A program made the translations under genes and the position numbers. From Amycolatopsis sp. 2-15 (GTDB lineage Bacteria > Actinomycetota > Actinomycetes > Mycobacteriales > Pseudonocardiaceae): a DNA stretch of 64,000 nucleotides. The stretch spans positions 1,188,001 through 1,252,000 of the forward strand of contig NZ_CP127294.1 in assembly GCF_030285625.1 (NCBI RefSeq), in the 5' to 3' direction. Of the stretch, positions 676 to 17,014 are shown piece by piece. Position 1 is the first letter of the stretch, and each line of letters starts with the position of its first letter. The notes under the pieces were generated by a model. The model searched no databases. It saw only the letters and a list, made by a program, of their open reading frames with translations, and was not told the DNA's origin.

Positions 676-3600
676 TTGAAACGCAGTCGAAGAAGCAGCG
701 CGGTGGTCGCCGCTCTGCTCGCGGGAAGCGTGGTCACCTTCGGGGCCACCGGAACGGCGGAGGCCGCGGCACCCAAGCCGTGGTTGCCGGCCACTCCCGC
801 AAACTGGAGCCTCGTCGTCGACCAGACGAAGACGACGCCGGTGACGGTCACGCGCGGCGTGACCCAGTACTCCGAGACCTACGACACCGTCGGCGGCCGC
901 CAGCGCACCCAGGTGCTGGACGTGAACCTCGCCGACCCGAACGTGCGCCTCGGCGTCGTCGAAGCCGGCGACGTGATCACCAACCCGGCCGACGAGACGG
1001 TCGGCTCGATGGCCGCCCGCACCCACGCGGTGGCCGGCGTCAACGGCGACTTCTTCGAGATCAACGCCAGCGGCCGCCCGCTCGGCGGCGTGATCACGAA
1101 CGGCAAGCTGCTCAAGAGCCCGCGCCCGAACTTCAACGCGCAGCTCGGCGTGCGCGCCGACGGCACGATGGTGCTCGGCCCGCAGACCTTCTCCGGCTCG
1201 GTCAAGGACGGTGCCGCGAGCACTCCGCTGACCTCTGTCAACGTTGTCAACGACGTGGCGTCCGGCGGCATCACCGAGATCACCCCCGACCTCGGCAGCG
1301 CGACGGCTCTCCCGGCCAGCACTCTCGTGCTCGGGCACGAGACGAAGGCGGGCACGTTCGTCGTCGACTCCGTGCAGACGGGCGTCACCGCGGCTCCGGC
1401 CCTGCCGAAGGGCCAGCTCGGCCTCCTCGGCGGCGGCGCGGGCGGCACGTGGCTGTCGACCACCGTCCACAGTGGAGACTCGGTCTCGGTCACGGCCGAC
1501 ACCGGAGGCCTCAAGCAGCTGCTGTCCGGCTCGACCATGCTGGTCAAGGACGGCGCGGTCTACAACGACCCCACCGGCAACCCGCCGGGCGGCGTCAACC
1601 CCGAGACCGTGGTCGGCGTGAGCAAGGACGGCAAGCACACGATCATCGCGACGCTCGACGGGCGCCTCGGCGCGAGCGCGGCCCTGGGCGTGACGCCGGC
1701 GCAGGTCGCGGGCTACATGGTGGCCCACGGCGCGTACAACGCCGTGCTATTCGACGGCGGTGGCTCCACCGAGATGGTGGCCCGCAAGCCCGGTGACCCG
1801 GCCGTCTCGGTGATGAACAGCCCGTCGGACGGCCACGAGCGGCCCGTCGCCAACGGCCTGTTCCTCTACTCCACCGAGCAGGCCCCCGGCTTCGCCCGGT
1901 CGATGGTCGTCAACGGCAACAAGGGCGTGGACACCGTGCCCGGCGCGACCGTGCCGGTCCCCGCGTTCGGCCTCGACTCGCTCGGCAACCCCGCGCTCGA
2001 GAAGGCGTCCGTGCAGGTCGTGCCCTCGACGCTCGGTTCGTGGAAGGACGGCCAGTTCACCGCCGGTCACGCGGGCATCGGCGTGCTGATCGCCCGCGCG
2101 GGCATCGCGGTCTCCGTGCAGCCGTTGCGGGTCGTCGACCGGCTCGGGTCGCTGCAGATCTCGCCGACCGACCCGGACCTGAACAACGGTGGGACGCAGA
2201 CGTTCACCCTGTCCGGCTCGACGTCCACGGGCACTGCGGTCGCCATCCCCGCCGCCGCGGCTTCGTGGTCGGTGAGCGACGCAACGCTGGGCAGCGTCGA
2301 CAAGTCCGGTGTCTTCACGGCGGACGCGGTGAACTCGGGCCTGGAGAAGGTGACGGCGAAGGTCGGCGGCGCCACGGCGACCGCGACCGTGGCCATCGGC
2401 AGCGTGTCGCAGGAGCTCAACGACTTCAGCGACCCGTCGGCGTGGAGCTTGCGCAACACCACGGGCCAGCCGGCCACGATGGTCGCCGCGCCGGGCGTGG
2501 TCCCGCCGGGTTCGACGGCTTCGGCCTCGACGCAGCTGACGTACACGATGCCCGCGGGCTCCGGCGTGAAGCAGCTTGTGCTGTCGCCGAAGTCCACGAT
2601 CACGGCCGGCGCCAACGCCGGCGGCCAGAACCCGACCGGCATCGGCGTGTGGGTGAAGGGTGACGGCACCGGCATCCAGCTGGCCGAGTCGTACATCGGC
2701 ATCGACGGCGCCACCACCACGCTGTACCCGACCACGGTGACGTGGAAGGACTGGCGCCTGGCCATCGCGACGCTGCCGCCGGGCCTGAACTTCCCGCTAC
2801 GGATCAGCTTCGTCGGCTTCCTCACGATCAACCCGAGCCAGACGACGTCGGGCACGCTGAACGTGAGCGGTCTGCAGGCGCTGTATTCACCGCGCCCGCT
2901 GGTCGCGCCGCCGTACCAGGCGATTCCGCAGAACCCGTCGTGGTTGAAGTTCTCGGAGAACGCAGCGGACTTCTCGCGTTCGGGCTCGACGATGCTGCTG
3001 GGCGACGACGCGCACATGGTGGCGAGCGACCCGGGTTCGGCGTCGTCGAACGTCATGGACACGATCAAGGGCCGGCTGCCGACCTTGCCTTCGCAGGCAC
3101 GGCCGTCTTCGGTGCAGGCGCTCGGTGACATGTCGGACGACGGCGCACTCGCCGACCTGCAGTACGCGCAGCAGAAGATCGCCGCGCTGGGCGTGCCGTA
3201 CCACGACGTGGTGGGCAACCACGAGATCAGCCAGGGCGTGCTGCCGGAGAACGGCAACTTCGCCCAGGTCTTCGGGGCCACGCACTACCAGTACAAGGCC
3301 GGCGACGCGCAGGTGATCGTGACCGACAACGCGCACGGCAGCCTGCAGTCGTCGGACGCGTTCCAATCGCCCGCCGAGGCGCAGTACCCGTGGCTGGTCA
3401 AGCAGCTCACGGACGCTTCGTCGCAGACCGTGCTGGTGACCACGCACATGCCGGCGTACGACCCGCACCCGGTGGCCAACAGCCAATTCAGCGACCGGTG
3501 GGAAGCGCGCATGTACGTGCGGCTGGTGCAGCGCTACCAGCAGACGCACCCGGACAAGCACGTGGTGATGCTCTACGGCCACGCGCGCGGGTTCGCCGAC

Positions 3601-4053
3601 CAGGTCATCGACCCGCTGGGCAACCCGACGTCGCCGGCCGCCGGCGGTGTCCCGCAGCTGACGATCGCGGACCTCGGCATGCCGGCGTACGCGCCTTCGG
3701 ACGAGGGCGGCATCTACCACTTCGTGCTGCTGCACACTGCTCGCGGTGACGTGCAGTTCTCGGTGGAGCCGGTGCTGTCGTCGATCGCGGTGACGGTGCC
3801 CTCGGCTTCGCTGCGGGTGGGTGCTTCGGTCAGCGCTTCCGCCACCGGCGCCGAGGTCGGCGGGGACAACCTCCCCGCCGCCAAGATGCCGATCGCCGAT
3901 CCGGCCTCGCACGTGTGGTCGTCGAGCGACTCTCGCGTCGCCTCGGTGGACGCGAAGACGGGCGAGATCACCGCTCGCCGCGCGGGCACCGTGACGATCT
4001 CGGTGACCAGCGGTGGCGTGACGGGGTCGGCTCAGCTGGCTGTCACGCGCTGA
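676..4053 (+). CDS. Secreted phosphodiester glycosidase / metallophosphoesterase fusion with Ig-like domains
   Basis: The TTG start is preceded by GAACGAGGAG (661-670) and begins a clear Sec signal peptide: KRSRR, a hydrophobic core, and AEA near residue 30. The mature protein of about 1,095 residues has a phosphodiester glycosidase (NAGPA/DUF2233) domain at about 120-400, with VNGDFFE, GRPLGGVI and VLFDGGGSTEM. A Big-like Ig segment follows at about 488-580, then a linker. A calcineurin-like metallophosphoesterase spans about 770-1030, with GDMSDDG near 816, GNHE near 846, THMP near 922 and YGHARG near 965. A second Ig-like domain ends the protein. The usual final GHxH is GHAR here. Family knowledge suggests hydrolysis of sugar-phosphate diesters outside the cell; the true substrate is unknown. 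Confidence 0.88.
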   Translation: MKRSRRSSAVVAALLAGSVVTFGATGTAEAAAPKPWLPATPANWSLVVDQTKTTPVTVTRGVTQYSETYDTVGGRQRTQVLDVNLADPNVRLGVVEAGDVITNPADETVGSMAARTHAVAGVNGDFFEINASGRPLGGVITNGKLLKSPRPNFNAQLGVRADGTMVLGPQTFSGSVKDGAASTPLTSVNVVNDVASGGITEITPDLGSATALPASTLVLGHETKAGTFVVDSVQTGVTAAPALPKGQLGLLGGGAGGTWLSTTVHSGDSVSVTADTGGLKQLLSGSTMLVKDGAVYNDPTGNPPGGVNPETVVGVSKDGKHTIIATLDGRLGASAALGVTPAQVAGYMVAHGAYNAVLFDGGGSTEMVARKPGDPAVSVMNSPSDGHERPVANGLFLYSTEQAPGFARSMVVNGNKGVDTVPGATVPVPAFGLDSLGNPALEKASVQVVPSTLGSWKDGQFTAGHAGIGVLIARAGIAVSVQPLRVVDRLGSLQISPTDPDLNNGGTQTFTLSGSTSTGTAVAIPAAAASWSVSDATLGSVDKSGVFTADAVNSGLEKVTAKVGGATATATVAIGSVSQELNDFSDPSAWSLRNTTGQPATMVAAPGVVPPGSTASASTQLTYTMPAGSGVKQLVLSPKSTITAGANAGGQNPTGIGVWVKGDGTGIQLAESYIGIDGATTTLYPTTVTWKDWRLAIATLPPGLNFPLRISFVGFLTINPSQTTSGTLNVSGLQALYSPRPLVAPPYQAIPQNPSWLKFSENAADFSRSGSTMLLGDDAHMVASDPGSASSNVMDTIKGRLPTLPSQARPSSVQALGDMSDDGALADLQYAQQKIAALGVPYHDVVGNHEISQGVLPENGNFAQVFGATHYQYKAGDAQVIVTDNAHGSLQSSDAFQSPAEAQYPWLVKQLTDASSQTVLVTTHMPAYDPHPVANSQFSDRWEARMYVRLVQRYQQTHPDKHVVMLYGHARGFADQVIDPLGNPTSPAAGGVPQLTIADLGMPAYAPSDEGGIYHFVLLHTARGDVQFSVEPVLSSIAVTVPSASLRVGASVSASATGAEVGGDNLPAAKMPIADPASHVWSSSDSRVASVDAKTGEITARRAGTVTISVTSGGVTGSAQLAVTR

Positions 4054-4063
4054 TCGTTTCAAG

Positions 4064-4102
4064 GCCGGGCGCGCCCTGTTTCCTGGGGCGCGCCCGGCTT
4101 TT
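4064..4102. terminator. Intrinsic terminator after the glycosidase gene
   Basis: A 13-bp perfect GC-rich stem (4064-4076 with 4086-4098) and a 9-nt loop are followed on the plus strand by TTTT. It lies 10 bp after the stop of the secreted fusion protein and before the stop of the convergent DUF427 gene. Confidence 0.85.
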
Positions 4103-4110
4103 CGCGTGGG

Positions 4111-4491
4111 TCAGGCGGGCAGTTCCTCGATCGAGACGCGGTCCGCGTAGAAGGCGACGTGGTCCTTGATCGGGGACACCGCGTCGTAGGGCTCCTCGTA
4201 CGTCCAGACGGCATTGTCGCCCGCGGAACCGGCCGAGGTCAGGGTGTAGTAGGCCGCGTTGCCCTTGTACGGGCAGTACGTGTGGTGCTCGGTCCGCGCG
4301 AGGGCGGCGAAGTCGACGTCCTCACGCGGGATGTACTGCACCGCCGGGTACGTGGACTCGCGCAGCACCTGCGCCCGGGTCGTGTCGGCGATGACCGTGT
4401 CACCCAGCTTCACGAGCACGCGGGCCGGGTTGACCTCGACCGTGATCGGGTGGTTGGGGCCGGGGATCTTCTGCTGCGTTGCCTGGGACAT
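4111..4491 (-). CDS. DUF427 domain-containing protein
   Basis: This 126-residue cytosolic protein matches the DUF427 family in length and landmarks: VRVEVNPARV-type opening, ADTTRAQVLRESTYP, VQYIPREDVD, TYCPYKGNAAYY and the ending WTYEEPYDAVSPIKDHVAFY. The family is a small beta-barrel fold without an established reaction. The ATG at 4491 is preceded by AGGAGACCC, a good ribosome binding site. It stands alone between two terminator-like hairpins, so it is probably monocistronic. Confidence 0.92.
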   Translation of the reverse strand: MSQATQQKIPGPNHPITVEVNPARVLVKLGDTVIADTTRAQVLRESTYPAVQYIPREDVDFAALARTEHHTYCPYKGNAAYYTLTSAGSAGDNAVWTYEEPYDAVSPIKDHVAFYADRVSIEELPA

Positions 4492-4568
4492 GGGTCTCCT
4501 CGTTCCGCTGCGTCTTCTCGTAGTGACAACCACGAAGCGGCGCGGACCCTTCCCGTCGCCTGGTCGAG

Positions 4569-4600
4569 CGGGCCACCGCCCGCGCAGGGTGGCGGCCCGG
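4569..4600 (-). terminator. Imperfect GC hairpin after the S1 protease gene
   Basis: The segments GGGCCACCGCCC and GGGTGGCGGCCC can pair with mismatches in the middle, just downstream (minus strand) of the protease stop at 4611. There is no clear T run, so this is a weak terminator call. Confidence 0.35.
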
Positions 4601-4610
4601 TCACGTTCCG

Positions 4611-5261
4611 TCAGACGCCCGCGACCTGCGAGATCCAGCTGCGGTCCTGCGTGATGTTGGTGTACGCCGTGTTGTTCGACCGGTCGCTCGTGGAGGCGAC
4701 GCCGACCTGGCGGCCGGAGGCGAACATCGGGCCGCCGGAGTCGCCGCCGGCGGTGATGCCGGTGCCGCGGTTGGCGCAGACGGCGATGCCGCCCGTGTAG
4801 TCGCGGCAGGTGATGGAGTTGACGCGGACGTCGGCGACCTTGAGCAGGCGCGACTGGCAGTTGATCTCCGAGCCGCACTGGCTGGTGGCGCCCCAGCCGT
4901 AGACCTGGGCGGTCTGGCGGACGGCGACGTCGCCGGTGCGGCCGAGCGGCGAGTAGGTGGCGCTGACCGAGGTGGACAGGTGGGCGATGGCCAGGTCGGC
5001 GACGCCCGGGTACTTGGTGATCGCGTCGGCCGTCGCGGTGGTGCCGCCGGCGGTCTGGTCGAGGCTGCCGATGCGGAAGGTGTAAGTGCCCGACTCGGCG
5101 ACGCAGTGCTTCGCGGTGAGGATGTAGCGCGGGGCGATGATCGTGGCGGTGCAGTTCTGCTGGTGAGCAGCATCAAACACGTGCGCAGACGCATGTTCGC
5201 TCGTTTCTGCGGCGGATCTCGCCGCGGGGTTCCGGTGGGGACTCGGAGAGGCCCTGATCAT
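4611..5261 (-). CDS. Trypsin-like S1 serine protease with disrupted N-terminus
   Basis: The chymotrypsin-fold core is intact. His52 lies in TAKHC, Asp89 in VADLAIAHL and Ser175 in GGDSGGP, with paired cysteines around each. Members of this actinobacterial secreted family normally carry a signal peptide, a propeptide and an Ile-Gly-Gly mature start before this point. Here the frame upstream of NCTATIIAP reads as non-hydrophobic filler. A plausible signal-peptide start (MRLRTCLMLL at 5194) lies in a different frame and runs straight into the catalytic part out of frame. About 60-80 residues therefore seem to have been deleted, and the product as written would be neither exported nor activated normally. 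The start at 5261 is nominal. Confidence 0.6.
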   Translation of the reverse strand: MIRASPSPHRNPAARSAAETSEHASAHVFDAAHQQNCTATIIAPRYILTAKHCVAESGTYTFRIGSLDQTAGGTTATADAITKYPGVADLAIAHLSTSVSATYSPLGRTGDVAVRQTAQVYGWGATSQCGSEINCQSRLLKVADVRVNSITCRDYTGGIAVCANRGTGITAGGDSGGPMFASGRQVGVASTSDRSNNTAYTNITQDRSWISQVAGV

Positions 5262-5368
5262 CAGGGGATTTGTCCGGATGCCGGAACCGACGAATGTAGC
5301 CGGGGGGATACCTGTTTTCCGCAGGATCGACGGCTACGTGCAGTTCTGCGTAGTGTTTCCGAGGCCGC

Positions 5369-5779
5369 TCAGGCCGAGACGCGCTGGGGCGCGGTCCGCC
5401 ACAGCCAGTACAGGCCGACCAGCGGCAGCACGAGCGGGATGAACACGTAACCCTGGCCGTAGACCGACCACACGGTCGCGTCGGGGAAGGCCTGGCGGTC
5501 GAAGACGCTGAGCGTGCCGATGGTCAGCACGCCGAGGAACTCGATGCTGCACGCCACGAGTGCGACGCGCCACCAGCGTTCACCGCCCTTGGCAAGGGCG
5601 AAGGTCGCGAGGAGGTAGACGACGGCGGCGAAGGCCGAAAGCACGTAGGCCAGCGGCGCTTCGTGGAACTTCGTGCCGATCTGGACGCCGGCGCGCGAGG
5701 TCGCGGCCAGCGCGAAGATCGCGTACACCGCGACCAGCACCCGGCCCGGGCCCGTGGCCGTCTTACGCGCTTGCTCCAC
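5369..5779 (-). CDS. Small integral membrane protein (4 TM)
   Basis: The 136-residue product has four hydrophobic stretches, roughly residues 15-33, 45-65, 75-95 and 110-130, and ends in a short basic tail (WRTAPQRVSA). I do not recognise a functional family. Its start overlaps the end of the next membrane gene upstream by 17 bp, so the two are translationally coupled and probably form one membrane unit. Nothing in the sequence points to a substrate. Confidence 0.75.
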   Translation of the reverse strand: MEQARKTATGPGRVLVAVYAIFALAATSRAGVQIGTKFHEAPLAYVLSAFAAVVYLLATFALAKGGERWWRVALVACSIEFLGVLTIGTLSVFDRQAFPDATVWSVYGQGYVFIPLVLPLVGLYWLWRTAPQRVSA

Positions 5780-6128
5780 TCCACACCTCGTTCAGTCGCA
5801 GCACCATCACCGGGATGGCCAGGCAGGCGATGCCGAGCACGACCGTGCTCGACCGGCTCCGCTCGGCCAGCGCCCACGCCGCGCCGACCGGCAGCACGAC
5901 CAGGCAGCCGATCAGGTAGGCCAGGAACGTGGCGAGGCTGCCCGGCTTCTCGCCGCTCGCGAGCAGCACGATGCCGACCACGAGCTGGGCGACGAGCAGC
6001 ACCTCCACCACACCGAGCGCGACGAGCAGCGGGGTGTCCGGCAGGCGCTTGCGCGCGGCCTGCACGAAGCTCCACAGCGCGACCAGCAGTGCGCACACCG
6101 CCACCGCCACCGCGAAACCGAGAATCAC
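5763..6128 (-). CDS. Small integral membrane protein (4 TM)
   Basis: I chose the GTG at 6128, giving 121 residues, because AAGGAGGAAC (6131-6140) precedes it at ideal spacing and the protein then starts directly with a membrane helix (ILGFAVAVAVCALLVALW). Four predicted helices follow, separated by short charged loops (AARKRLPD, GEKPGS, AERSRSS). The family is not recognised. The 17-bp overlap with the following gene suggests a two-component membrane complex. Confidence 0.75.
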   Translation of the reverse strand: MILGFAVAVAVCALLVALWSFVQAARKRLPDTPLLVALGVVEVLLVAQLVVGIVLLASGEKPGSLATFLAYLIGCLVVLPVGAAWALAERSRSSTVVLGIACLAIPVMVLRLNEVWSGASA

Positions 6129-6560
6129 CCGTTCCTCCTTCTGCCGCGCTGGCCACAAGGTACCCGCTGGCGTTTCCGGGGCTGTTCGCCGAGGGCTGCC
6201 GACGTGGCCGGCGCCACGGCCGTCGGTCTCCTGTGGACTGAGCCCGCCCCCAGGTCGGCGTGGCCGTCGAAATCGGACACCGGAATCCGTTGATGGCATT
6301 CTGCCAATTTCGGGGTACAGTTATGCCGCGCTTCGCCGGACCTGCATGAACAATGCGCAGCGCCGGGTGTTACACCACGACCGAGTGGTCGAGTAATCCG
6401 TGAAATCACACAGGGTCTCCGCTTTCGGACTCCCCCAGCACTTCCGCCTACCCTGATCAGCCCAGCCGAACCCCCGGGTTGGCGGATTGGCCTACGCACC
6501 TCCGGCGTGCGGGAATATTCCTCGTCAGGAAGTGCGGAAGTACGCGGAGGGTGCGGTTTC
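6129..6560. other. Promoter region of the lanthipeptide operon
   Basis: This 432-bp region lies between the divergent membrane-protein operon and lanKC. It contains an 8-bp inverted pair, GCACTTCC at 6438-6445 and GGAAGTGC at 6528-6535, and a local repeat GGAAGTGCGGAAGTACGC just before the start codon. I see no convincing sigma-70 promoter or small gene. In Streptomyces the equivalent ram/amf promoter is bound by the response regulator RamR; whether these repeats play that part is unknown. Confidence 0.45.
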
Positions 6561-9107
6561 ATGGACATGCGGTATGAAGCTTTCTGCTTCGCGGATCCGC
6601 TGTTCTTCGACGAACAACGCGAAACCCGAGCGCCTGCCGACGACTTCGCCGCCGGGCTGCCGACGCCGGGACCGATGTGGACGGTGGCCACCCGCGGCAT
6701 CTGGCGCGTGCTGCACCCGCAGGGCGTTGACCTGCCGGAACAGGGCTGGAAGGTCCACGTTTCGGCCGGAATGGACAATGCGGACCGCGTACTGTCGACG
6801 GTGCACGAGTACTGCGTGGACCATCGCCTTGCGTTCAAGCACCTGCGATCACGGACCATCCTGCTGGCGCGGAATTCGAAATACGCATCTCGCGACGGAA
6901 GCGGCAAGTTGATCACGCTTTATTCGCTCGACGAGTGCGAACTGGCGCGGGTTCTTCGAGATCTTTCCGAGCGGCTGAGTGGCGAACACGGCGCTTATGT
7001 GCTCAGCGACCTTCGTTACGAATCCGGACCGTTATACGTACGTTATGGTGGATTCGCCGAACAATGGGTGGAACACGACGGCACTCGGGTGCTCGCGATC
7101 CGCAAACCCGACGGTACACCCGTGCCCGACCGGCGTGAGCCCGTTTTCTCGGTACCCGATTGGGTGAAGATTCCGGCATGCCTGGACGCGAGTGTCGCGG
7201 CCCGCAAAGGCGGCGATCCGGGGCAGTTCCCGTACCGCGTGACGAGCTCCCTGCACTTCTCCAACGGCGGCGGCGTGTACCTGGCCGAGCGCAAGGCGGA
7301 TGGGGCGGAAGTCGTGCTCAAGGAGGCCCGGCCCCACGCCGGGCTGGACCGCGAGCTGGTGGACGCCGTCGAACGGTTGCGGCGCGAGCACGAGGTGCTG
7401 CGGCGGCTGGCGGACGTTCCGGGCGTTCCGGACGCGTACGAGCGCTTCACCGTGTGGGAGCACCACTACCTGGCGATGCAGCGGATGCCGGGCACGTCGC
7501 TGGGCAGCTGGCTCGCGCTGCACTACCCGCTCACGCGCCGCGACAGCAGCGAGGCCGACCTGCTGGCGTACCGCGACCGGGCGCTGGGGGTGCTCGCGCA
7601 GGTGGAGCGGATCGTCGCCGACCTGCACGAACGCGGGGTGGTGTTCGGTGACCTGCACGCGCTGAACGTGCTGGTGGCCGACGACGACACGGTGTCGCTG
7701 ATCGACTTCGAGATGGCCTTCGACGTCGCCTCGGGATCGCGGCCGGCGCTGGGTGCGCCCGGCTTCCGCGCGCCGGCCGACCGGCACGGGTTCGACATCG
7801 ACCGGTACGCGCTGGCGATGCTGCGGCTGTGGCTGTTCCTGCCGTTGGCAGCACTGCTGGAGCTGGCGCCGGCGAAGCTGCGGGGCGCGGCCGAGTTCGC
7901 GCAATGGCGGTTCGGGCTGCCGGACGGGTACGCGGACGAGCTGGTGCGGGTGCTTGGCTCGCCGGGCGTCGGCGTGACCCACACCGCGCTCGACGAGGAG
8001 CGCCCCGACTGGACTCTGGTGCGCAAACAGGTCGTGGAGGGCATTCTCGCTTCGGCGACCCCGTCGCGACTGGACCGGTTGTTCCCGGGCGACATCGAGC
8101 AGTTCCGGGTGGGCGGCGCGTGTTTCGGCTTCGGCGCGGCGGGTGTGCTGTGGGCGCTGGACGTGGCCGGGGCCGGTCGGTTCCCGGAGCACGAGCAGTG
8201 GCTGCTCGACGCCGTGCGCCGCGAGCCACCCGCACGGCCGGGGTTCTTCGACGGCAGCCACGGGATCGCGTACGTGCTCGAGCGCTTCGGCCACCACGAC
8301 GCGGCTTCGGCATTGCTGGCCTCGTCTCGGGCGTTGGTGGACCAGACCACTGACCACGCGCTCGAGGGCGGCCTCGCGGGGATCGCCTTGACCCAGCTGC
8401 ACTTCGCGACTTCGCGCGGCGACAACGAATACGGGCGCCAGGCGTTGGCCACCGCCGTGCGGCTCGCCGAGACGTTGGAGACGGCCGCGCCGCCGGGGAA
8501 GTTCGCGCGGGCGGGGCTGTTGAGCGGCTGGTCGGGGCCGGCGTTGCTGTTCATCCGGCTGTACGAGCGGACCGGTGAGCCCGCGTGGCTGTCGTTCGCG
8601 GACCAGGCGCTGCGCCGCGACCTCGAAGAATGCGACACCGCGGACGACGCCTCCCTCCAGGTCCGCGACGGCGAGCGGCGAACGCTGCCGTATGCCGGGA
8701 TCGGCAGCGCCGGGATCTTGCTGGTGCTGGAGCAGCTGGCGCGCGTTTCGCCTGCCGCCTTGGCGTGCTCGAATCTGCCCGCGCTGCGCGAGGCGTGCCG
8801 CGGCGAGTTCGTGATCCAGCCCAGCCTGCTGCACGGCCGAGCGGGCCTGATGGCGGCGTTGTCGTTCGACGCTTCGCCTCCTGACCGGGTTCGCTCGGCC
8901 ATCGACCTGCACCTGGCGCGCCTGGCGTGGCACGCCGTCCCGTACCGCGGGGGTCTGGCCTTCCCGGGCAACCAGCTGCTGCGGCTGTCCACCGACGTCA
9001 CCACCGGGAGCGCGGGTGTGCTGCTCGCGCTGTCGGCCCTGCTGGACGGCTCGGAGGTGCTGCCGTTCCTGGGCGCCACGCCGTCCCCCCACACCTCCGG
9101 CCGCTGA
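6561..9107 (+). CDS. lanKC: Class III lanthipeptide synthetase LanKC
   Basis: This 848-residue trifunctional enzyme phosphorylates Ser/Thr in the precursor, eliminates phosphate and cyclises Cys onto the dehydro residues. Residues about 1-200 are the lyase-type N-terminal domain (HGAYVLSDLRYESGPLYVRYGGF near its end). The kinase domain has Lys254, a catalytic loop D364-L-H-A-L-N369 and D382-F-E for metal binding. The C-terminal LanC-like domain (about 490-848) keeps GSHGIAY and LLSGWSGP. It has SLLHGRAG where zinc-type cyclases have a Cys-His-Gly ligand, so it is class III (RamC/LabKC) rather than class IV. The ATG at 6561 follows GGAGG at 6546-6550. It heads the operon lanKC-lanA-two ABC genes. 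Confidence 0.93.
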   Translation: MDMRYEAFCFADPLFFDEQRETRAPADDFAAGLPTPGPMWTVATRGIWRVLHPQGVDLPEQGWKVHVSAGMDNADRVLSTVHEYCVDHRLAFKHLRSRTILLARNSKYASRDGSGKLITLYSLDECELARVLRDLSERLSGEHGAYVLSDLRYESGPLYVRYGGFAEQWVEHDGTRVLAIRKPDGTPVPDRREPVFSVPDWVKIPACLDASVAARKGGDPGQFPYRVTSSLHFSNGGGVYLAERKADGAEVVLKEARPHAGLDRELVDAVERLRREHEVLRRLADVPGVPDAYERFTVWEHHYLAMQRMPGTSLGSWLALHYPLTRRDSSEADLLAYRDRALGVLAQVERIVADLHERGVVFGDLHALNVLVADDDTVSLIDFEMAFDVASGSRPALGAPGFRAPADRHGFDIDRYALAMLRLWLFLPLAALLELAPAKLRGAAEFAQWRFGLPDGYADELVRVLGSPGVGVTHTALDEERPDWTLVRKQVVEGILASATPSRLDRLFPGDIEQFRVGGACFGFGAAGVLWALDVAGAGRFPEHEQWLLDAVRREPPARPGFFDGSHGIAYVLERFGHHDAASALLASSRALVDQTTDHALEGGLAGIALTQLHFATSRGDNEYGRQALATAVRLAETLETAAPPGKFARAGLLSGWSGPALLFIRLYERTGEPAWLSFADQALRRDLEECDTADDASLQVRDGERRTLPYAGIGSAGILLVLEQLARVSPAALACSNLPALREACRGEFVIQPSLLHGRAGLMAALSFDASPPDRVRSAIDLHLARLAWHAVPYRGGLAFPGNQLLRLSTDVTTGSAGVLLALSALLDGSEVLPFLGATPSPHTSGR

Positions 9108-9139
9108 TGGCCGGCGGAAGAACACGAGAAGGGATCACC

Positions 9140-9291
9140 ATGGAACTGGTTCTCGACCTGCAGGCCCTGGAAGCCCCCGAAGCCCTCGAAGGCCACGGCG
9201 GCGGTCACGGTCACGGCCACGGGCGCCGAGCAACCTGAGCCTGCTGGCTTCGTGCGCGCACAGCACGCTCAGCCTGCTGACCTGCCACTGA
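9140..9291 (+). CDS. lanA: SapB/AmfS-like class III lanthipeptide precursor, leader and core in different frames
   Basis: The ATG at 9140 opens a leader MELVLDLQALEAPE with the LDLQ motif that class III kinases recognise, followed by a Gly/His tract. In this frame translation ends at 9238 without any Ser or Cys. In the -1 frame the next codons read SNLSLLASC and STLSLLTC up to a TGA at 9289-9291: two Ser-x2-Ser-x(3-4)-Cys motifs, exactly what labionin/lanthionine formation needs. One extra G in the GGG at 9221-9223 would join them into a 50-residue precursor. A base-calling error, a real inactivating deletion or a -1 frameshift could explain this. Its place directly after lanKC and before two ABC genes matches ramC-ramS-ramA-ramB. 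Confidence 0.8.
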
Positions 9292-9360
9292 GTTAGCTGA
9301 CCTACTGACCCTTCGATCCTTGTCGACCTTCTGACGCTCTTCGAGTGTCACGGACCGGGT

Positions 9361-9395
9361 GCGGGAGCGGCGCAGGCCAAGTGCGCCGCTCCCGC
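9361..9395 (+). terminator. Perfect 14-bp hairpin after lanA
   Basis: GCGGGAGCGGCGCA (9361-9374) and its exact complement (9382-9395) flank a 7-nt loop, 70 bp after the core-frame stop of lanA. There is no T run. It could attenuate transcription into the transporter genes, raising the amount of precursor mRNA relative to transporter mRNA, which is common in RiPP operons. Confidence 0.7.
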
Positions 9396-9492
9396 CTCAT
9401 CATTCTGCCCCGGTGCCGGGGGTTTGGGCACCGGGTTCGCTGGGTTCTGCTGCGCGGTCGGCGGTTGGTTGGGCTGGTTGGCTAGTCGGCTG

Positions 9493-9546
9493 GTTGGACT
9501 CGTTGGACTCGTTGGACTCGTTGGACTCGTTGGACTCGTTGGACGA
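9493..9546 (+). repeat. 9-bp tandem repeat GTTGGACTC
   Basis: Five exact copies of GTTGGACTC occupy 9493-9537 and a sixth, partial copy follows (GTTGGACGA). The bases just upstream (about 9460-9492) are degenerate GGTTGG-like units, suggesting an older, decayed array. It ends immediately before the GAGGAG that would serve as ribosome binding site for the next gene. A unit of three codons keeps any reading frame open, giving Ser-Leu-Asp repeats in one frame. Confidence 0.9.
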
Positions 9547-9554
9547 GGAGTGAG

Positions 9555-11654
9555 ATGCCGGGGTACGGAGCACCTTCCGACGGTCCCGTCGACGCGGTGC
9601 CTACCACCGGCCCCACCGGTGCGCCCCGCCCCGATTCGGCAGGCTCGGCTGCGGTCTGGCAAGTTGCCACTCCACACTCGCCCTTGCCACAGCCGACGGC
9701 ACACCGCCACCCCGCGGCTCCTCAGCCACCGGCAAGCACCACCCCCGAACGGCACGTTGCCGATACCCGCACTGACTTGCCACAGCCAACGGCACACCGA
9801 GACCGTGCCGCACGACCGGCAGGCAGCGGAGTCGAACGGCAAGGTGCCGAACTCCGCCCGGACTTGCCACAGCCCATGGCACACCACGGCCGAGCGGCAC
9901 GAGCGAGGCCGGCATCTGGCGTAGCTGCGCGGCAAGTTGCCGAACCAGCACCCGACTTGCCGGAGTCCGTGGCAAAACACAAGCGAAAGGCCAGGAAACC
10001 AGCGGCACCCGGCGATCGGCTGCTGGGCGAAGTCGCGAAGCGGGATCCGTGGCGGGTCGGGGTGCTCGTCGTGGTCGGGCTTGTCGCGGTGGGGGCGAGT
10101 TTGTTGTTGCCCGGGGCGTTGGCGGGTGCCACCGATGCCGTGATCAGCGGCAGGGGCGCCGCGAAACAGGTTGCCTGGCTGGTCGTCGTCGGTGGGGCTG
10201 AGATCGTGGCCGACGTGGTGGGCGGGGTGGTCGTCGTGAGGGTCACCAGTGGTGCCGGCGCGTGGCTGCGGCGCAGGATGATCGATCGGCTGCTGGCCCA
10301 GCGGACGAAGACCCCGTTCGCCGAAGGGGATGCAGTGAGCCGGATGGCCGGGGACGCCGTGGGGGCGGGCAGTATCGTGCCGGTCGTCGTGCAGCTGGTG
10401 TCCGCCGCCGTGATCTCGGTGGGTGCCATCGTGTTGCTCGCGGTCCTCGACTGGCGGCTGGCGCTCGTGTTCCTCGGCAGCATTCCCGTGGCGCTGCTCC
10501 TCGCGCGGTCGCACCTCAAGAACACGGCCGACGACGTCCTCACCTACCAGCGCGTCTCCGGCGAGCTCGCGGCGCGGCTGCTCGACGCCAACGCCGGGCT
10601 CGCCACGATCGCCGCCTCCGGGACCGCGGACCAGGAGGCCGAGCGGGTGCTGAAACCGTTACCCCGGCTCAGTCTTGCCGGTCGCGGGATGTGGCGGACA
10701 CAGGCGAAGATGGTGTGGCGCGCCGCGTTGCTGTTGCCGGCCGTGGAGCTGGCGGCGCTCACCGCGGCGGGGTTCGGGGTCCTCGCGCACCGGCTGACGG
10801 TCGGCGACGTGCTCGCCGCCCTCGGCTACGTCGCCCTCGGCATGGGGATCGTGACGCAAATCCCGTTGCTCACCACGGTTTCGCGGACCCGAAGCTGCGC
10901 CCAGCGCGTCGCCGAGGTCCTCGACGTCCCCACGCCCGAGCGCGGCAAGCTCGGCCTCCTGCCCGGCAACGGGACGCTCACCCTCCACAACGCCACCGTC
11001 CAAGGCGCCCTGCACCCCACCACGCTCACCATCCCCGGCGGTACGTTCACCGCCATAGTGGGGAAATCCGGCTCCGGAAAGTCCACTGTGGTCAGTCTCC
11101 TCGGCGGCCTCACCACTCCCGACGCCGGCGAAGCCCACCTCGACGGCCGCGACCTCACCACCCTGCGCCCCGAGGAACTCCGCGCCGTGATGGGCTACGG
11201 CTTCGCCCGGCCGCACCTGCTCGGCACCACCGTCGCCGACGCCGTGGGCTACGGCAGCTGGGCCGGCGACACCGCCGTCCGCACGGCCTGCCGCACCGCC
11301 CGCATCCACGACGTCATCACCCGCCTCCCCCACGGCTACCACACGCCGCTCGCCGAAACCCCGCTCTCGGGCGGAGAAGCGGCACGCGTGGGCCTCGCGC
11401 GGGCCATCGTGCACCACCCGCGCGTCCTCCTCCTCGACGACGCCACCGCCAGCCTCGACACCGTCACCGAACAGTCCGCCCTCGCCGACGTCGGCGCACG
11501 AACCCTGGTGGCCGTCACCCACCGCGCCACCCTCGCCTCCCGCGCCGACACCGTCGTCTGGCTCGACGACGGCCACGTCAGAGCCGTCGCCCCGCACGCC
11601 CAGCTGTGCCAGGACCCGCGGTACCGCGCCGTGTTCACGGAGGAGGCGGGATGA
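9555..11654 (+). CDS. Lanthipeptide ABC exporter, permease-ATPase fusion (RamA/AmfA-like)
   Basis: The conserved part is a type I ABC half-transporter: membrane region about residues 160-430, Walker A GKSGSGKST at 503-511, signature LSGGE at 604-608, Walker B VLLLDD at 624-629 and switch His656. The first 150 residues are unusual: four imperfect in-frame repeats of 29-31 residues (DLPQPxAHxxRAAR) ending in a basic stretch. The ATG at 9555 has a good GAGGAG 4 bp upstream. A GTG at 9969 would give a normal-sized protein starting VAKHKRKARK, but with a cramped ribosome binding site. Together with the following ABC gene it probably forms the heterodimeric exporter of the lanthipeptide. Confidence 0.85.
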   Translation: MPGYGAPSDGPVDAVPTTGPTGAPRPDSAGSAAVWQVATPHSPLPQPTAHRHPAAPQPPASTTPERHVADTRTDLPQPTAHRDRAARPAGSGVERQGAELRPDLPQPMAHHGRAARARPASGVAARQVAEPAPDLPESVAKHKRKARKPAAPGDRLLGEVAKRDPWRVGVLVVVGLVAVGASLLLPGALAGATDAVISGRGAAKQVAWLVVVGGAEIVADVVGGVVVVRVTSGAGAWLRRRMIDRLLAQRTKTPFAEGDAVSRMAGDAVGAGSIVPVVVQLVSAAVISVGAIVLLAVLDWRLALVFLGSIPVALLLARSHLKNTADDVLTYQRVSGELAARLLDANAGLATIAASGTADQEAERVLKPLPRLSLAGRGMWRTQAKMVWRAALLLPAVELAALTAAGFGVLAHRLTVGDVLAALGYVALGMGIVTQIPLLTTVSRTRSCAQRVAEVLDVPTPERGKLGLLPGNGTLTLHNATVQGALHPTTLTIPGGTFTAIVGKSGSGKSTVVSLLGGLTTPDAGEAHLDGRDLTTLRPEELRAVMGYGFARPHLLGTTVADAVGYGSWAGDTAVRTACRTARIHDVITRLPHGYHTPLAETPLSGGEAARVGLARAIVHHPRVLLLDDATASLDTVTEQSALADVGARTLVAVTHRATLASRADTVVWLDDGHVRAVAPHAQLCQDPRYRAVFTEEAG
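9658..9985 (+). repeat. Four imperfect about 90-bp tandem repeats with internal hairpins
   Basis: The landmark TTGCCACAGCC recurs at 9684, 9777 and 9864, and as TTGCCGGAGTCC at 9957. The spacings of 93, 87 and 93 bp are all multiples of three. Each unit contains GGCAAGTTGCC-like and TGCCA...TGGCA-like inverted repeats. On the opposite strand the units would encode CHGLWQVRAEFGTLP-like peptides. The array lies within the N-terminal extension of the ABC gene or, if translation starts at 9969, in its leader. Confidence 0.8.
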
Positions 11655-11950
11655 CCGACGACATCGACCGCACGACACCCGCCCGCCAACCCCGCGCCGC
11701 CTTGCCGCTCGCGGGACGACCCGCAGCGCAACATCGCCAGCGCGGCCACACGAATCCCGCCGGCCGGCAACGCGAACACCGTGGGTCAAGCGGCAGCAAC
11801 CTCGACCGCACCACTCCCCCGCACCAACCGCGCGCCGCCTCGCCGCTCGCGGCACCACCCGCAACGCCACTCGCCCAGCGCGGCCACACGAACCCAACCG
11901 ACCAGCAACAAAACGGCGGATCCAAGCACCCCGCGAAGGAGGCGGGATGA
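11651..11950 (+). CDS. Repeat-derived 99-residue protein between the two ABC genes
   Basis: The ATG overlaps the stop of the upstream ABC gene (ATGA) and follows GGAGGCGGG. The frame ends by overlapping the start of the second ABC gene, again after GGAGGCGGG. The product is hydrophilic and made of two copies of a 46-residue unit with the consensus DRTTPxxQPRAAxPLA and QRGHTNP. There is no signal peptide, membrane helix or recognised domain. It may be a real coupled peptide or merely an interspersed repeat inserted at the junction, duplicating the ribosome binding site. The expected gene at this place in ram/amf operons is the second transporter itself. Confidence 0.4.
   Translation: MTDDIDRTTPARQPRAALPLAGRPAAQHRQRGHTNPAGRQREHRGSSGSNLDRTTPPHQPRAASPLAAPPATPLAQRGHTNPTDQQQNGGSKHPAKEAG
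11669..11920. repeat. Two-copy 138-bp tandem repeat
   Basis: Two diverged copies of a unit beginning GACCGCAC start near 11666 and 11804, with the conserved block CAGCGCGGCCACACGAA in both. The 138-bp period is a multiple of three. On the minus strand the copies would read as GFVWPRW...ASGxAARGW. It is unrelated in sequence to the 9658-9985 array, so two separate repeat families flank lanT1. Confidence 0.8.
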
Positions 11951-13662
11951 GCGTCACTCACCTCTACCGGGCCACCCTCCTACAGCAATGGCGCGGCGGC
12001 CTCGTCCTCCTGGCCTGTTCCGCGCTCGAAGGGGCTCCCGCGTTCTTCTCCGGGCGGTTGGTCGAGCTGGCCGTCGACCGGGGGTTCGCGGTGGGGGCGC
12101 CGAAGGCCGGCGTCGGTTATCTCGCGTTGTTCGGGGTGGCGGCGCTGGCCGGGGCGTTCGGGTCGCGGTTGGTGTGGCGGCAGCTCGGCCAGGTGGTGGA
12201 GCCGCTGCGGGACGCGCTGGTGACGGCCGTGGTGCGGGGCGTGCTGCACGACCCCAACCCGCCGCGGAACGCGGCCGACGCGAGTGGCGTCGCGAGGATC
12301 ACGCAGCACGTGGAGGTGGTGCGCGACGCCACGGCGGGACTGCTCGTGCAGGCGCGCGCGATGGTCGTGACGACGGCGGCGGCGATCGTGGGGCTGGCGA
12401 CCGTCGCGGGGCAGCTGCTGCTGCCGGTGGCGGTGCCCGTGGTGGTCGCCGTCGCGGTGTTCGCGGCGCTGTTGCCGTCGCTCGCGCGGAGGCAGCGGGC
12501 GCTGGTGCTGGCCGACGAGCGGACCGCCGAGACCACCGGCGCCGTGCTCGGCGGGATGCGGGACGTGGTGGCGTGCGGGGCCGAGCCGGGGGCGGCGTTG
12601 GCGGTGTACGACGCCGTCGAGAAGCAGGCCGAAGCCGCCGTCAAAGTGGCGCATTCCGGGGCGGCGCGGTCGTTGGTGATCTCGCTCGGGGCGTTCGTCC
12701 CGTTGATCGCGAGCCTGGCGGTCGCGCCGGGGTTGGTCGAGAGCCAAGAGTTGACGGCGGGCGCGGCGCTCGGCGCGTTGGTCTACCTGGCGACGACGAT
12801 GCAACCGACGCTACGAGGCCTGGCCGCCACCGCCGGAACAGTTGTACTCAGGCTGATCGTGGCGCTCAAGCGGCTGGCCGAGACCGCCGAGGTGCCACCG
12901 CCGAAACCCGAAACCCGAGAAGCCCACGGCGCCGACCTCGAAGTCCGCGGCCTCACCTTCCGCTGGGGCGCCGCGCCCGAACCCGTCGTGCGTGGACTGG
13001 ACCTCGACCTGCGCGCGGGCGATCACCTCGCCGTCGTCGGGCCGAGCGGGATCGGCAAGTCGACACTCGCCGGACTGCTCACGGGACTGCTCACCCCCCA
13101 GGCCGGCCGGGTGCTGCTCGACGGCGTGCCCGTGGCCGAGGCCGCCAACCGGCACGAGCTCATCGCCCTCATCCCCCAGCAGGCCTACGTCTTCGCCGGC
13201 ACACTACGTGACAACCTCGGCCTCTTCGCTCCCACCGCGTCGGACGAGCACCTTCGCGACGCCGCCCGAGCCGTCGGCGCCGAAGAACTGCTCACCCGCC
13301 TCGGCGGCCTCGACGCCGAGCTCGGCCACGAAGCCGAGGGCCTCTCCGGCGGCGAGGCCCAGCTCATCGCCCTCGCCCGCGTCCACGCGAGCGCGGCCCG
13401 CATCGTCATCCTCGACGAAGCGACGTCCACTTTGGACCCCGCCGCCGAGGCCCGCGCCGAGCGCGCCTTCACCACCCGTGGCGGCACGCTGGTCGTGATC
13501 GCGCACCGCCTGTCCTCCGCCGTGCGGGCGCGCAGCGTCCTGGTGCTCGACGGACGGGAGACGCTGCTCGGCAGTCATGCCGAACTGCTGGTCCATTCAC
13601 GGCGATACGCAGCGCTGATGCAGGCTTGGCTACCCGCCGAACCAATCCGGACGGGACACTGA
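11947..13662 (+). CDS. Lanthipeptide ABC exporter, second permease-ATPase (RamB/AmfB-like)
   Basis: This 571-residue ABC half-transporter has a membrane domain at about residues 15-300 and a nucleotide-binding domain with Walker A GPSGIGKST at 365-373, a Q-loop near 411, signature LSGGE at 466-470, Walker B IVILDE at 487-492 and His520. The ATG at 11947 follows GGAGGCGGG. Its length is that of a normal half-transporter, unlike the extended partner upstream. In SapB-type systems the two ABC proteins act as a pair to export the modified peptide. There is no separate leader peptidase gene nearby, as usual for class III clusters. Confidence 0.92.
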   Translation: MSVTHLYRATLLQQWRGGLVLLACSALEGAPAFFSGRLVELAVDRGFAVGAPKAGVGYLALFGVAALAGAFGSRLVWRQLGQVVEPLRDALVTAVVRGVLHDPNPPRNAADASGVARITQHVEVVRDATAGLLVQARAMVVTTAAAIVGLATVAGQLLLPVAVPVVVAVAVFAALLPSLARRQRALVLADERTAETTGAVLGGMRDVVACGAEPGAALAVYDAVEKQAEAAVKVAHSGAARSLVISLGAFVPLIASLAVAPGLVESQELTAGAALGALVYLATTMQPTLRGLAATAGTVVLRLIVALKRLAETAEVPPPKPETREAHGADLEVRGLTFRWGAAPEPVVRGLDLDLRAGDHLAVVGPSGIGKSTLAGLLTGLLTPQAGRVLLDGVPVAEAANRHELIALIPQQAYVFAGTLRDNLGLFAPTASDEHLRDAARAVGAEELLTRLGGLDAELGHEAEGLSGGEAQLIALARVHASAARIVILDEATSTLDPAAEARAERAFTTRGGTLVVIAHRLSSAVRARSVLVLDGRETLLGSHAELLVHSRRYAALMQAWLPAEPIRTGH

Positions 13663-14070
13663 CCGGCCCTGCCCACCGGACAGCCCACTCGTCTGTCGAC
13701 AAATCAATTCGGCGACTACCCGACCAGTGGGATTCACCACCTTCCCCCGGATTTCGCATTCACCCGTTCAGCTCAGCACACGTCCAAGAGGTTGCCTGCC
13801 GAGGTCATTACCACCAGAAATGCCGGTAATCGGCCCCTCACGCGACGTGATGGGTCACGGTGGGCCACACATCGGCAGGTCGAGCGCTCGATCAGCGGCA
13901 CCACGATGCCCCGGTTCATGGTAAAAAACGGACCCTGATCTGTTCCGTGGTGAAACGAAGGGTGAGTCGAGGACTCGTGACGACGGCCGCCCCGGTCCCA
14001 CCGTCGTGTCCGCTTCCCCTGCCGGCTTCCGGCTTTTCGCCGACTGTGACTCAGGAGTTCGTGAATCGTC
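13663..14070. other. Intergenic region upstream of the conservon
   Basis: These 408 bp separate the second ABC gene from the conservon. I see no strong hairpin after the ABC stop, no repeats and no credible small gene. AGGAG at 14053-14057 lies 13 bp before the GTG start of the sensor gene, farther than usual. The conservon promoter is probably here, but I cannot point to it. Confidence 0.4.
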
Positions 14071-16503
14071 GTGGAGAACAAAGATGAGTCCGGCAAGGCG
14101 TACGACAAGTCGATCCGGAAAAGGCTGACCAGGACCGTTCTCATCCCGAGCATCACGCTGCTGGTGCTGGTGGCCGCGGTCTCGTCGTACTTTTTCATCA
14201 ACGGCCTGTACGTGCGCCTCGTCGCCGTCTCCGTGCGTGAGGTGTCGATCCCCGCGATCCAGGCGCTGTCGTCACTGCAGCAGGAGCGCCAGGTGGCGCT
14301 TCAGTTCCTCGACACCCCCAGCGCGGGGAACGGCGAGCTCCAGCAGCTGCAGAAGGGCAACGACGAGAAGCTCAGGGGCATGCAGGACGCCTTCGCGTCC
14401 ACCATCTCGAGCGCGCCCGCCGAGATCGCCGACAAGGTCACCGCGCTGAAGACGCAGCTCGACCAGCTGCCGGTGCTGCGTTCGCAGATCAACTTCCGCA
14501 CCATCGGCCGGGCGCAGGTGAACTCCTACTTCAACGGCGTGCTCGACACGGCGTCGACGCTGTTCGACACCCAGGCCCGCATCGTGCCCGACGCGACAGC
14601 CGTGCAGGGCGCGATCTCCGCGACCTCACTGTTCCGGGCGACCGACCTGATGTCGCGCGAGACCTCGCTGGTGACCAGCGCGCTCGCGAGCGGCAGCTTC
14701 GCACCCGACGACTTCGTGCAGTTCACACAGCTGACGGGCTTCTACCGCACGCAGGTCAGCCAGATCGCGCCGTTCCTCGAGCCCAAGGTGCGCGACGACT
14801 ACCAGGCGCTCGTGGCGAGCCCGGGCTGGAAACAGCTCACCGACGCGGAGAGCGCACTGGTGAAGCACGGCCCGTGGACGCAGGCGGACCGGGACACGGT
14901 GCCGGTCACGGCAGCGGACTGGCTGACCCTCACCGGCCAGGTCTCGAACAGCCTCACCCAGCTGACGATCGCCCAGGGCGACGAGGTGTCCGCCGCTGCC
15001 ATCGAGTCCGGCGACTCGCAGTTGCGCAACGCGATCATCGGCAGTATCGCGGCCCTGATCGCCTCGCTGGTCGCGATCATCATCGCCGTGCGGGTGTCCC
15101 GGTCGCTCGTCGACCGCACCCTGATGACACGGCTGGCGCGCCTGCGCAACGACTCCCTCGACCTCGCGCGCAACCGCCTGCCGAACATCGTCGACCGGCT
15201 CAAGAACGGCGAAGCCGTGGATGTCGGCGCCGAGCTGCCCCAGCTCGACCACGGCCTCGACGAGATCGGCCAGGTAGCCGAGGCCTTCAACGCCGCCCAG
15301 CTGACCGCCGTCAACGCGGCGGCGAGCGAGGCGAAGGCGCGAAGCGGTGTGCACAACGTGTTCCTCGGTATCGCGCACCGCAACCAGGTGCTCGTGCACC
15401 GGCAGCTGCAGATCCTCGACGAGATGGAAAGCCGCGAGGAGAACTCGACGCAGCTGGCGTCGCTGTTCCAGCTCGACCACCTCGCCGCCCGCGCGCGCCG
15501 CACCACGGAAAACCTGATCATCCTCGGTGGCAAGCAGCCCGGCCGGCGCTGGCGCAAGCCGGTGTCGCTCATGGAAGTGCTGCGCGCGGCCGTGTCCGAG
15601 ACCGAGCAGTACTCGCGGGTGCAGGTGGAGCAGGTGCCCGACGTGTCGATCGTCGGCTCGGCCGTGGCCGACGCCATCCACCTGATCGCCGAACTCGTGG
15701 ACAACGCCACGTCGTTCTCCCCGCCCGGCTCGCCGGTCGAGGTGACCAGCCGCATGGTCGCGCGCGGCGTCGTCGTCGACGTCTCCGACCAGGGTCTCGG
15801 CATGAAGGAAGCGGTGCGTGACTGGGCCAACGCGATGATGGCCGACGCGCCCGAGTTCGACGCCATGGCGCTGCGGGCCGACTCCAGCCTCGGCCTGTTC
15901 GTGGTCGCGCGCCTGGCTTCGCGGCTCGACATCACTGTCACGTTCGACCCGTCCCGGTACGGCGGCACGCGCGCCACCGTGCTGATCCCGTCCCAACACC
16001 TGGCCGGCAACGAGTCGGCCGACGCCGTCGGCAACGCCGAGTTCCGGCCCGAAGCCCCGCGTGAGCAAGCCGGGGTACTGGAGCCGGTGGGCGGTGCCGC
16101 GCGTCCGGCACTGGAGGGCTCACCGCGTGTCATGGAACCCACCAGCTCGTTCACCGGCCAGATCCCGATGAGGCGAGACGCCAAGCCGAGGCCGTACCCG
16201 GCTCGCGCGTACACCTCGGGCGAGCCGGAACCCCTGCAGTCACAACCGCCGGCTCCGGTCCAGGTACCGGTAGCCGCGGCCGTGGAACCGGCCCGCGAGC
16301 CCGATCAGAGCCTGCTGGTCGGCGACGATCGGCCCCGGCTGCCCCGGCGGCAGCCGCAGCAGAACCTCGTCGCCCAGCTGCAGCAGGACGACCCGGGCGA
16401 CCGGGACGTCGACCTCGCGGGCACCGGCGAAGCCACGGCCCGCACGCTGCTGGCGTTCCACAAGGGCACCCGCCGCGCCCGTGGCGGCACCGACGATGCC
16501 TAG
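14071..16503 (+). CDS. Conservon sensor histidine kinase-like protein (CvnA), NIT domain
   Basis: This 810-residue membrane sensor has TM1 at about residues 22-45, a large extracytoplasmic helical nitrate/nitrite-sensing-type domain to about 310, TM2 near 311-335 and a HAMP-like linker. The cytoplasmic part has LDHLAARARRTTENLIIL and an HATPase_c domain with ELVDNATSFSPPGSPV (N box) and DQGLGM (G1). A canonical phospho-acceptor H box (HExxxP-type) is not visible, as is typical of conservon kinases. The last 170 residues are Pro/Gln-rich and disordered. It is the first gene of a four-gene set with roadblock, DUF742 and GTPase genes. Conservons act like membrane-associated G-protein complexes controlling development or antibiotics. 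Confidence 0.9.
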   Translation: MENKDESGKAYDKSIRKRLTRTVLIPSITLLVLVAAVSSYFFINGLYVRLVAVSVREVSIPAIQALSSLQQERQVALQFLDTPSAGNGELQQLQKGNDEKLRGMQDAFASTISSAPAEIADKVTALKTQLDQLPVLRSQINFRTIGRAQVNSYFNGVLDTASTLFDTQARIVPDATAVQGAISATSLFRATDLMSRETSLVTSALASGSFAPDDFVQFTQLTGFYRTQVSQIAPFLEPKVRDDYQALVASPGWKQLTDAESALVKHGPWTQADRDTVPVTAADWLTLTGQVSNSLTQLTIAQGDEVSAAAIESGDSQLRNAIIGSIAALIASLVAIIIAVRVSRSLVDRTLMTRLARLRNDSLDLARNRLPNIVDRLKNGEAVDVGAELPQLDHGLDEIGQVAEAFNAAQLTAVNAAASEAKARSGVHNVFLGIAHRNQVLVHRQLQILDEMESREENSTQLASLFQLDHLAARARRTTENLIILGGKQPGRRWRKPVSLMEVLRAAVSETEQYSRVQVEQVPDVSIVGSAVADAIHLIAELVDNATSFSPPGSPVEVTSRMVARGVVVDVSDQGLGMKEAVRDWANAMMADAPEFDAMALRADSSLGLFVVARLASRLDITVTFDPSRYGGTRATVLIPSQHLAGNESADAVGNAEFRPEAPREQAGVLEPVGGAARPALEGSPRVMEPTSSFTGQIPMRRDAKPRPYPARAYTSGEPEPLQSQPPAPVQVPVAAAVEPAREPDQSLLVGDDRPRLPRRQPQQNLVAQLQQDDPGDRDVDLAGTGEATARTLLAFHKGTRRARGGTDDA

Positions 16504-16513
16504 TCCGCGACCG

Positions 16514-16541
16514 CACACAGGAAAGTCCACACAGGAAAGTC
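16514..16541 (+). repeat. Perfect 14-bp tandem duplication before the roadblock gene
   Basis: CACACAGGAAAGTC is present twice in a row (16514-16527 and 16528-16541), each copy carrying an AGGAAAG that resembles a ribosome binding site. The roadblock ATG follows at 16555. The duplication may affect translation initiation of the downstream conservon genes. Confidence 0.85.
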
Positions 16542-16554
16542 AAGGTCTCTCCGC

Positions 16555-16980
16555 ATGAACGAGTACGGGAACTCCAAACCCGACCTCAACTGGCTCCTCG
16601 ACGATGTCGTCCACCGCGTCGTCGGCGCGCAGAACGCCATCGTGCTGTCCGCCGACGGGTTGCTGCTCGGCAAGTCGAGCGGCATGAGCAAGGACGACTC
16701 CGACCAGTTGTCGGCGATCGCGTCCAGCCTGCAGAGCCTCGCCAAGGGGGTGAGCCGGCAGTTCAACCGGGGTCCCGTGCTGCAGAACATGATCGAGATG
16801 GAGGGCGGGTACCTCTTCGTGTCGGCGGCCGGCCAGGGCGCGTGCCTCGCGGTGCTGGCCGGCGCCGACGTGGACGTGGAGATGATCGCCTATGAGATGA
16901 ACCGGCTGGTCAAACGCGTCGGCGACTACCTCGCCTCGGCGCCGCGGGAAGCCGCCACCATGCTCAGGGAAGCCACGTGA
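16555..16980 (+). CDS. Roadblock/LC7 domain protein (CvnB)
   Basis: This 141-residue single-domain protein has the roadblock/LC7 fold pattern: DVVHRVVGAQNAIVLSADGLLLG, then SGMSKDDSDQLSAIASSLQSLAKG and a beta-rich GGYLFVSAAGQGACLAVLA. In bacteria these proteins regulate Ras-like GTPases, here the CvnD protein encoded two genes downstream. It is transcribed with the sensor gene 51 bp upstream. Confidence 0.95.
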   Translation: MNEYGNSKPDLNWLLDDVVHRVVGAQNAIVLSADGLLLGKSSGMSKDDSDQLSAIASSLQSLAKGVSRQFNRGPVLQNMIEMEGGYLFVSAAGQGACLAVLAGADVDVEMIAYEMNRLVKRVGDYLASAPREAATMLREAT

Positions 16981-17014
16981 CCACCGCCGACGTGCTCGTT
17001 CCCGCGGAGGCGGC

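Follow-up and report, generated by a model that had tools for sequence, protein, structure and literature searches.

The window, that is, the whole stretch of DNA analysed here, comprises 64,000 nt (G000:C1:1188001-1252000) of an Amycolatopsis genome assembled as a single contig of 10.05 Mb (G000). It holds a standard SapB/AmfS class III lanthipeptide cluster of the ram/amf type, made up of LanKC, precursor and two ABC transporters, in which the precursor is split between two reading frames:

6507–9107, plus strand: lanKC, class III lanthionine synthetase, intact, 866 aa, no stops (NF038151, 1021.6 bits, cut-off 575)
9140–9238, plus strand: precursor leader ORF, ATG at 9140, 32 codons, out-of-frame stop at 9236–9238
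9191–9223, plus strand: Gly/His tract containing short repeats, its last bases being GGG (9221–9223), delimited by alignments to relatives and tandem repeat detection
9229–9291, plus strand: SapB/AmfS-type core SNLSLLASCAHSTLSLLTCH, shifted into the -1 frame with respect to the leader, stop at 9289–9291
9555–11654, plus strand: ABC transporter 1 (abc1; PF00664, PF00005), orthologue at 94.7% in G094
11947–13662, plus strand: ABC transporter 2 (abc2), matching exporter models, none above its curated cut-off, orthologue at 94.2% in G094

LanKC enzymes of this family bind the leader, phosphorylate serine residues, carry out their elimination and form thioether rings with the two cysteines. Maturation and export of the peptide follow, through a protease and the transporters. 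The locus resembles the Streptomyces ram/amf clusters in that the precursor lies directly 3' of lanKC, as is characteristic for class III clusters, and is followed downstream by two ABC transporters. It also shares the L-D-L-Q leader and two Ser-x2-Ser-x(3-4)-Cys motifs of the SapB/AmfS lanthipeptides (NF033212; PF19402). Unlike in ram/amf, leader and core are found in different frames in this assembly. Pfam recognised no RamR/AmfR-type regulator among ten neighbouring proteins (703–17951), two of which matched nothing, and such a gene may be located elsewhere. The LanKC protein is 94% identical to that of G094 and 80% to those of G034 and G009; PADLOC matches on it map to its kinase domain. 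The system is of a known kind and does not look like a new way of making a peptide. A conserved L-L-D-L-Q leader motif is described as the recognition sequence in PMC13380574, and the biosynthesis of the family is covered in part there and in PMC7268733. Among the open-licence papers searched, no listed title or abstract concerned a frame-split SapB-type precursor or this cluster in Amycolatopsis.

The leader ORF translates into MELVLDLQALEAPEALEGHGGGHGHGHGRRAT and carries MELVLDLQ from 9140, so that the recognition motif L-[DE]-L-Q is present. A second in-frame ATG at 9107, overlapping the lanKC stop, offers an alternative leader start, and a database protein (P0006) begins at the equivalent position. 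The core contains SNLSLLASC (Ser-x2-Ser-x4-Cys) and STLSLLTC (Ser-x2-Ser-x3-Cys). Against NF033212, the SapB/AmfS family model, the leader half scores 29.1 bits over profile positions 2–23 and the core-frame half (9184–9288) 32.2 bits over positions 21–42, with a cut-off of 25; against PF19402 (RamS) the two reach 29.3 and 28.7 bits, respectively, with a cut-off of 24.3. The halves fit complementary parts of the SapB/AmfS model and, since each alone exceeds the curated cut-off, they are not a chance occurrence. What had been read from the sequence alone, namely a class III SapB/AmfS-like precursor with leader and core in adjacent frames right after lanKC and with two Ser-x2-Ser-x(3-4)-Cys motifs in the core, is substantiated by these scores together with that of LanKC for NF038151. 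The single ORF typical of a RamS precursor is missing from G000, where the frames of leader and core differ by one base.

This difference was judged against a survey of 80 Amycolatopsis genomes including G000. In 63 of the 79 others (30 of 35 genomes in a first set, 32 further genomes, and G094), lanKC is followed by leader and core in a single intact ORF, with a length of 44–52 residues as called by our own script; the core is thus in frame in the precursors of most relatives. The frame split is absent from all 64 relatives in which both halves exist. The nearest relative, G094, is 97% identical over 8900–9300 and has the same gene order, and according to the alignment its Gly/His tract is one base longer than that of G000, which joins its leader and core into a single ORF of 50 residues. 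A protein search with the precursor of A. saalfeldensis returned 20 proteins, among them P0009 (four member sequences, nine contigs), which holds the leader and core of the window in one 50-residue chain. Both G094 and P0009 therefore carry the 50-residue form that the sequence-only reading had expected of the intact precursor, and both differ from G000 by the one additional base in the tract. The A. saalfeldensis precursor itself (L041) likewise follows lanKC, starting 34 bases beyond the lanKC match, with the core SNLSLLASCTNSTLSLLTCH; it differs by its length of 47 residues and a shorter Gly tract, and is a single ORF. Since G094 is one base longer and no split occurs in the 64 relatives, the lesion is private to the G000 assembly. 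We are nearly certain that it is a private one-base frame lesion of the precursor, be it an error or a recent mutation, and involves no recoding. One base would be lost where the Gly/His tract ends, leaving leader and core in different frames. As assembled, translation stops after the leader, as can be read directly from the stop codon, and neither the core nor a lanthipeptide should be made; were the precursor intact, the product would, judged by the family, be a SapB-like peptide with two rings.

Recoding, by programmed -1 frameshifting or by transcript slippage, could join leader and core and thereby set the dose of the precursor. In its favour, the frame of the core stays open where it overlaps the leader and ends cleanly at 9291. 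However, no X XXY YYZ heptamer occurs in the leader ORF, the junction has a GGG run of only 3 bases, and the RNA fold following the junction is ordinary (z -1.42, 20 of 200 shuffles as stable). Furthermore, the split is not conserved (0 of 64). With both hallmarks of programmed -1 frameshifting lacking, a slippery heptamer and a conserved split, it was set aside, and with it the -1 slip at the GGG run that had been suggested from the sequence; we regard recoding of any sort as extremely improbable. The case shows that a RiPP precursor which looks split is best compared with its close relatives; here a single such comparison disposes of the recoding reading.

Nor do we see any real prospect that leader and core each form a product of their own, or that a different precursor serves lanKC. 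Apart from the split itself nothing speaks in favour of this; against it, start codons (ATG, GTG or TTG) are lacking near the core in the core frame, whose ORF opens as far back as 9016, within lanKC. A second RamS-type precursor was considered for the genome and dropped, because the PF19402 profile search of G000 returned the two halves alone, so a different intact precursor gene, which would have undone the sequence-only reading, did not appear. The model NF038159 gave one extra match in G000 (C1:9212809), at 16.8 bits far under its cut-off of 30, and NF038154 matched in none of the genomes, 14 control genomes included, and is hence uninformative.

Having returned to a private lesion as the explanation, one has to distinguish an error of the assembly from a mutation, the two alternatives which the sequence-only reading had named as a wrong sequence and a dead cluster. 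A real loss of one base, by recent slippage in the GC-rich tract, would have inactivated the precursor so lately that the rest of the cluster shows no decay yet. The other genes of the cluster show no relaxed selection, which speaks against this. Compared with G094, dN/dS is 0.157 for lanKC, 0.148 for abc1 and 0.147 for abc2, all between the quartiles of 305 genes (0.073–0.179), the value for lanKC lying above the median of 0.127. The dN values to G009 are nearly the same for G000 and G094 (lanKC 0.141 and 0.142, abc1 0.186 and 0.176, abc2 0.164 and 0.165, respectively), abc1 being slightly farther from G009 in G000 than in G094.

A second argument against a mutation comes from the surrounding assembly. 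Two blocks of 400 kb were compared, G094 genes against G000 DNA and the reverse, covering 0.8 of the 10.05 Mb; genes were taken from our own simple caller with a minimum of 60 residues, which is why the precursor is not among the genes counted. In the block around the window, 10 of 335 G094 genes were frameshifted in G000 and one had an internal stop, versus one frameshift and one internal stop among 337 G000 genes in G094. The next block had one frameshift in 300 genes in G000 and one in 297 in the reverse direction, and no internal stops either way. The 10 events lie at about 1.121–1.362 Mb of G000:C1, and one event at 1.4–1.8 Mb. An earlier, looser count for the block around the window gave 9 frameshifts and 4 stops in 335 genes, three of these stops near gene ends, and 2 and 1 in 337 for the reverse. 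With the genes of G009 as queries, 5 frameshifts and 5 stops were counted among 243 genes in G000, and 1 and 4 among 241 in G094. Weaker constraint does not explain the difference between the blocks, because their median dN/dS is similar (0.127 around the window, 0.117 in the next block). Frameshifts thus crowd near the window and internal stops do not, which leans to a local consensus error.

The crowding rests on small numbers, and several of the 10 events are weak. In the DNA alignments listed, four of nine genes flagged in the looser count show a single clean one-base gap (B_13, B_66, B_157 and B_257), whereas B_202 has a net two-base and B_204 a net one-base difference, both among other gaps, and B_45, B_78 and B_338 contain many gaps or poorly matching stretches. 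The events in B_78 and B_104 may be effects of rearrangement or alignment, and the frame junction falls within the first 26 residues in B_13, B_61, B_104 and B_157. Comparison with G009 confirmed B_13, B_45 and B_257 as broken in G000 alone. In a second check against G009, B_13, B_45 and B_157 were in one frame, B_66 was matched as two pieces sharing a frame, B_202 was just 31% alike, B_204 had no match and B_257 was not covered. One frameshifted gene lies within the window, an alpha/beta-hydrolase (esterase-like) gene on the minus strand (45444–46405) with its frameshift near 46333; G094 and G009 each have this gene in a single frame. In our judgement the frameshifted genes that have a Pfam name look accessory, which would also fit real pseudogenes.

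A real loss does occur elsewhere in the genus. In G090 (L172; 89% identical), leader and core still share a frame (PF19402, 54.3 bits), and the start codon of the precursor is changed, so that the usual start is absent. Its lanKC lies in two frames, though this break may be an error of the sequence; of abc2 only a fragment remains, again spread over two frames, and abc1 was not found within the fetched stretch of 10 kb, the sole part of G090 that was read. The existence of this damaged copy, of 12 species for which neither a precursor nor an adjacent transporter was found, and of a Gly/His tract that differs in length between species according to the alignment, all favour a recent mutation. 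The damage in G090, including a missing transporter gene, together with the accessory look of the named broken genes, is the reason for keeping this alternative. Summarizing, we consider a local consensus error of the assembly the most likely origin of the lesion, with a somewhat better than even chance, and give a very recent inactivating mutation a sizeable chance that stays below even. A further thought is that the GC-rich Gly/His tract acts as a slippage switch, so that the morphogen precursor is on in some strains or cells and off in others. We think this very unlikely; were it true, the isolate would have been caught in the off state, with its intact lanKC and transporters still under selection.

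The cluster occurs widely across Amycolatopsis, and at least two separate places in the genus show damage to it or its loss. Three of the 79 relatives have no intact copy of lanKC: G061 and G081 gave no LanKC match at E 1e-100, and G071 has only a 48% homologue and a 67% fragment, along with two PF19402 matches under the cut-off (20.5 and 20.1 bits). In another 12 of the 79 (G017, G023, G025, G027, G035, G072, G075, G088, G089, G091, G097 and G102; loci L029, L030 and L202–L211) lanKC is present and no RamS-type precursor was found. PF19402 had no match in these 12 genomes even at E 0.1, and NF038159 reached about 17 bits in G072 and G023 (cut-off 30), a level at which 2 of 14 control genomes match as well. 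No match to abc1 or abc2 lies within 1.5 kb of these 12 lanKC genes. In a tree of 41 Amycolatopsis LanKC sequences and two outgroups, the 12 form one group with a support of 100/100. The genus-wide view points to a clade that keeps LanKC, for which no precursor and no adjacent transporter were found.

Constraint on the LanKC proteins of this clade is weaker and yet present, because dN/dS is 0.17–0.26 in six pairs without precursor versus 0.08–0.18 in seven pairs with one. All 12 genes are open, save that in G097 residue 2 of the matched stretch is a stop, which probably lies before the start of that gene. The alignment has Lys, Asp, Asn and Asp, positions to which we ascribe kinase motif roles, in all 10 LanKC taken from genomes with leader and core, whereas at least one of these residues is lost in 6 of the 12 (G017, G023, G027, G035, G091 and G097). 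The protein of this clade thus remains open, and in half of the group its kinase chemistry appears to fail, which would fit either a second role or slow decay.

Several minor observations concern the immediate surroundings. Stretch 6507–13662 gave no plasmid match, and the 36-base core pattern is absent from the viral contigs, in searched sets which may omit records near the genome of the window. A 9-base tandem repeat of 8.8 copies is located at 9468–9544, between precursor and abc1, and an 87-base repeat of 2.4 copies at 9746–9961; these repeats lie partly inside the N-terminal part of the ORF that opens at 9555. The conserved part of abc1 begins at about 10062, and the part of its ORF from 9555 onwards that holds repeat DNA is probably non-coding. 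Directly after the cluster, at 14071–17954, genes for a NIT-domain histidine kinase, a Roadblock protein, a DUF742 protein and an ATP-binding protein follow each other in a row, which we take to be conservon-like.
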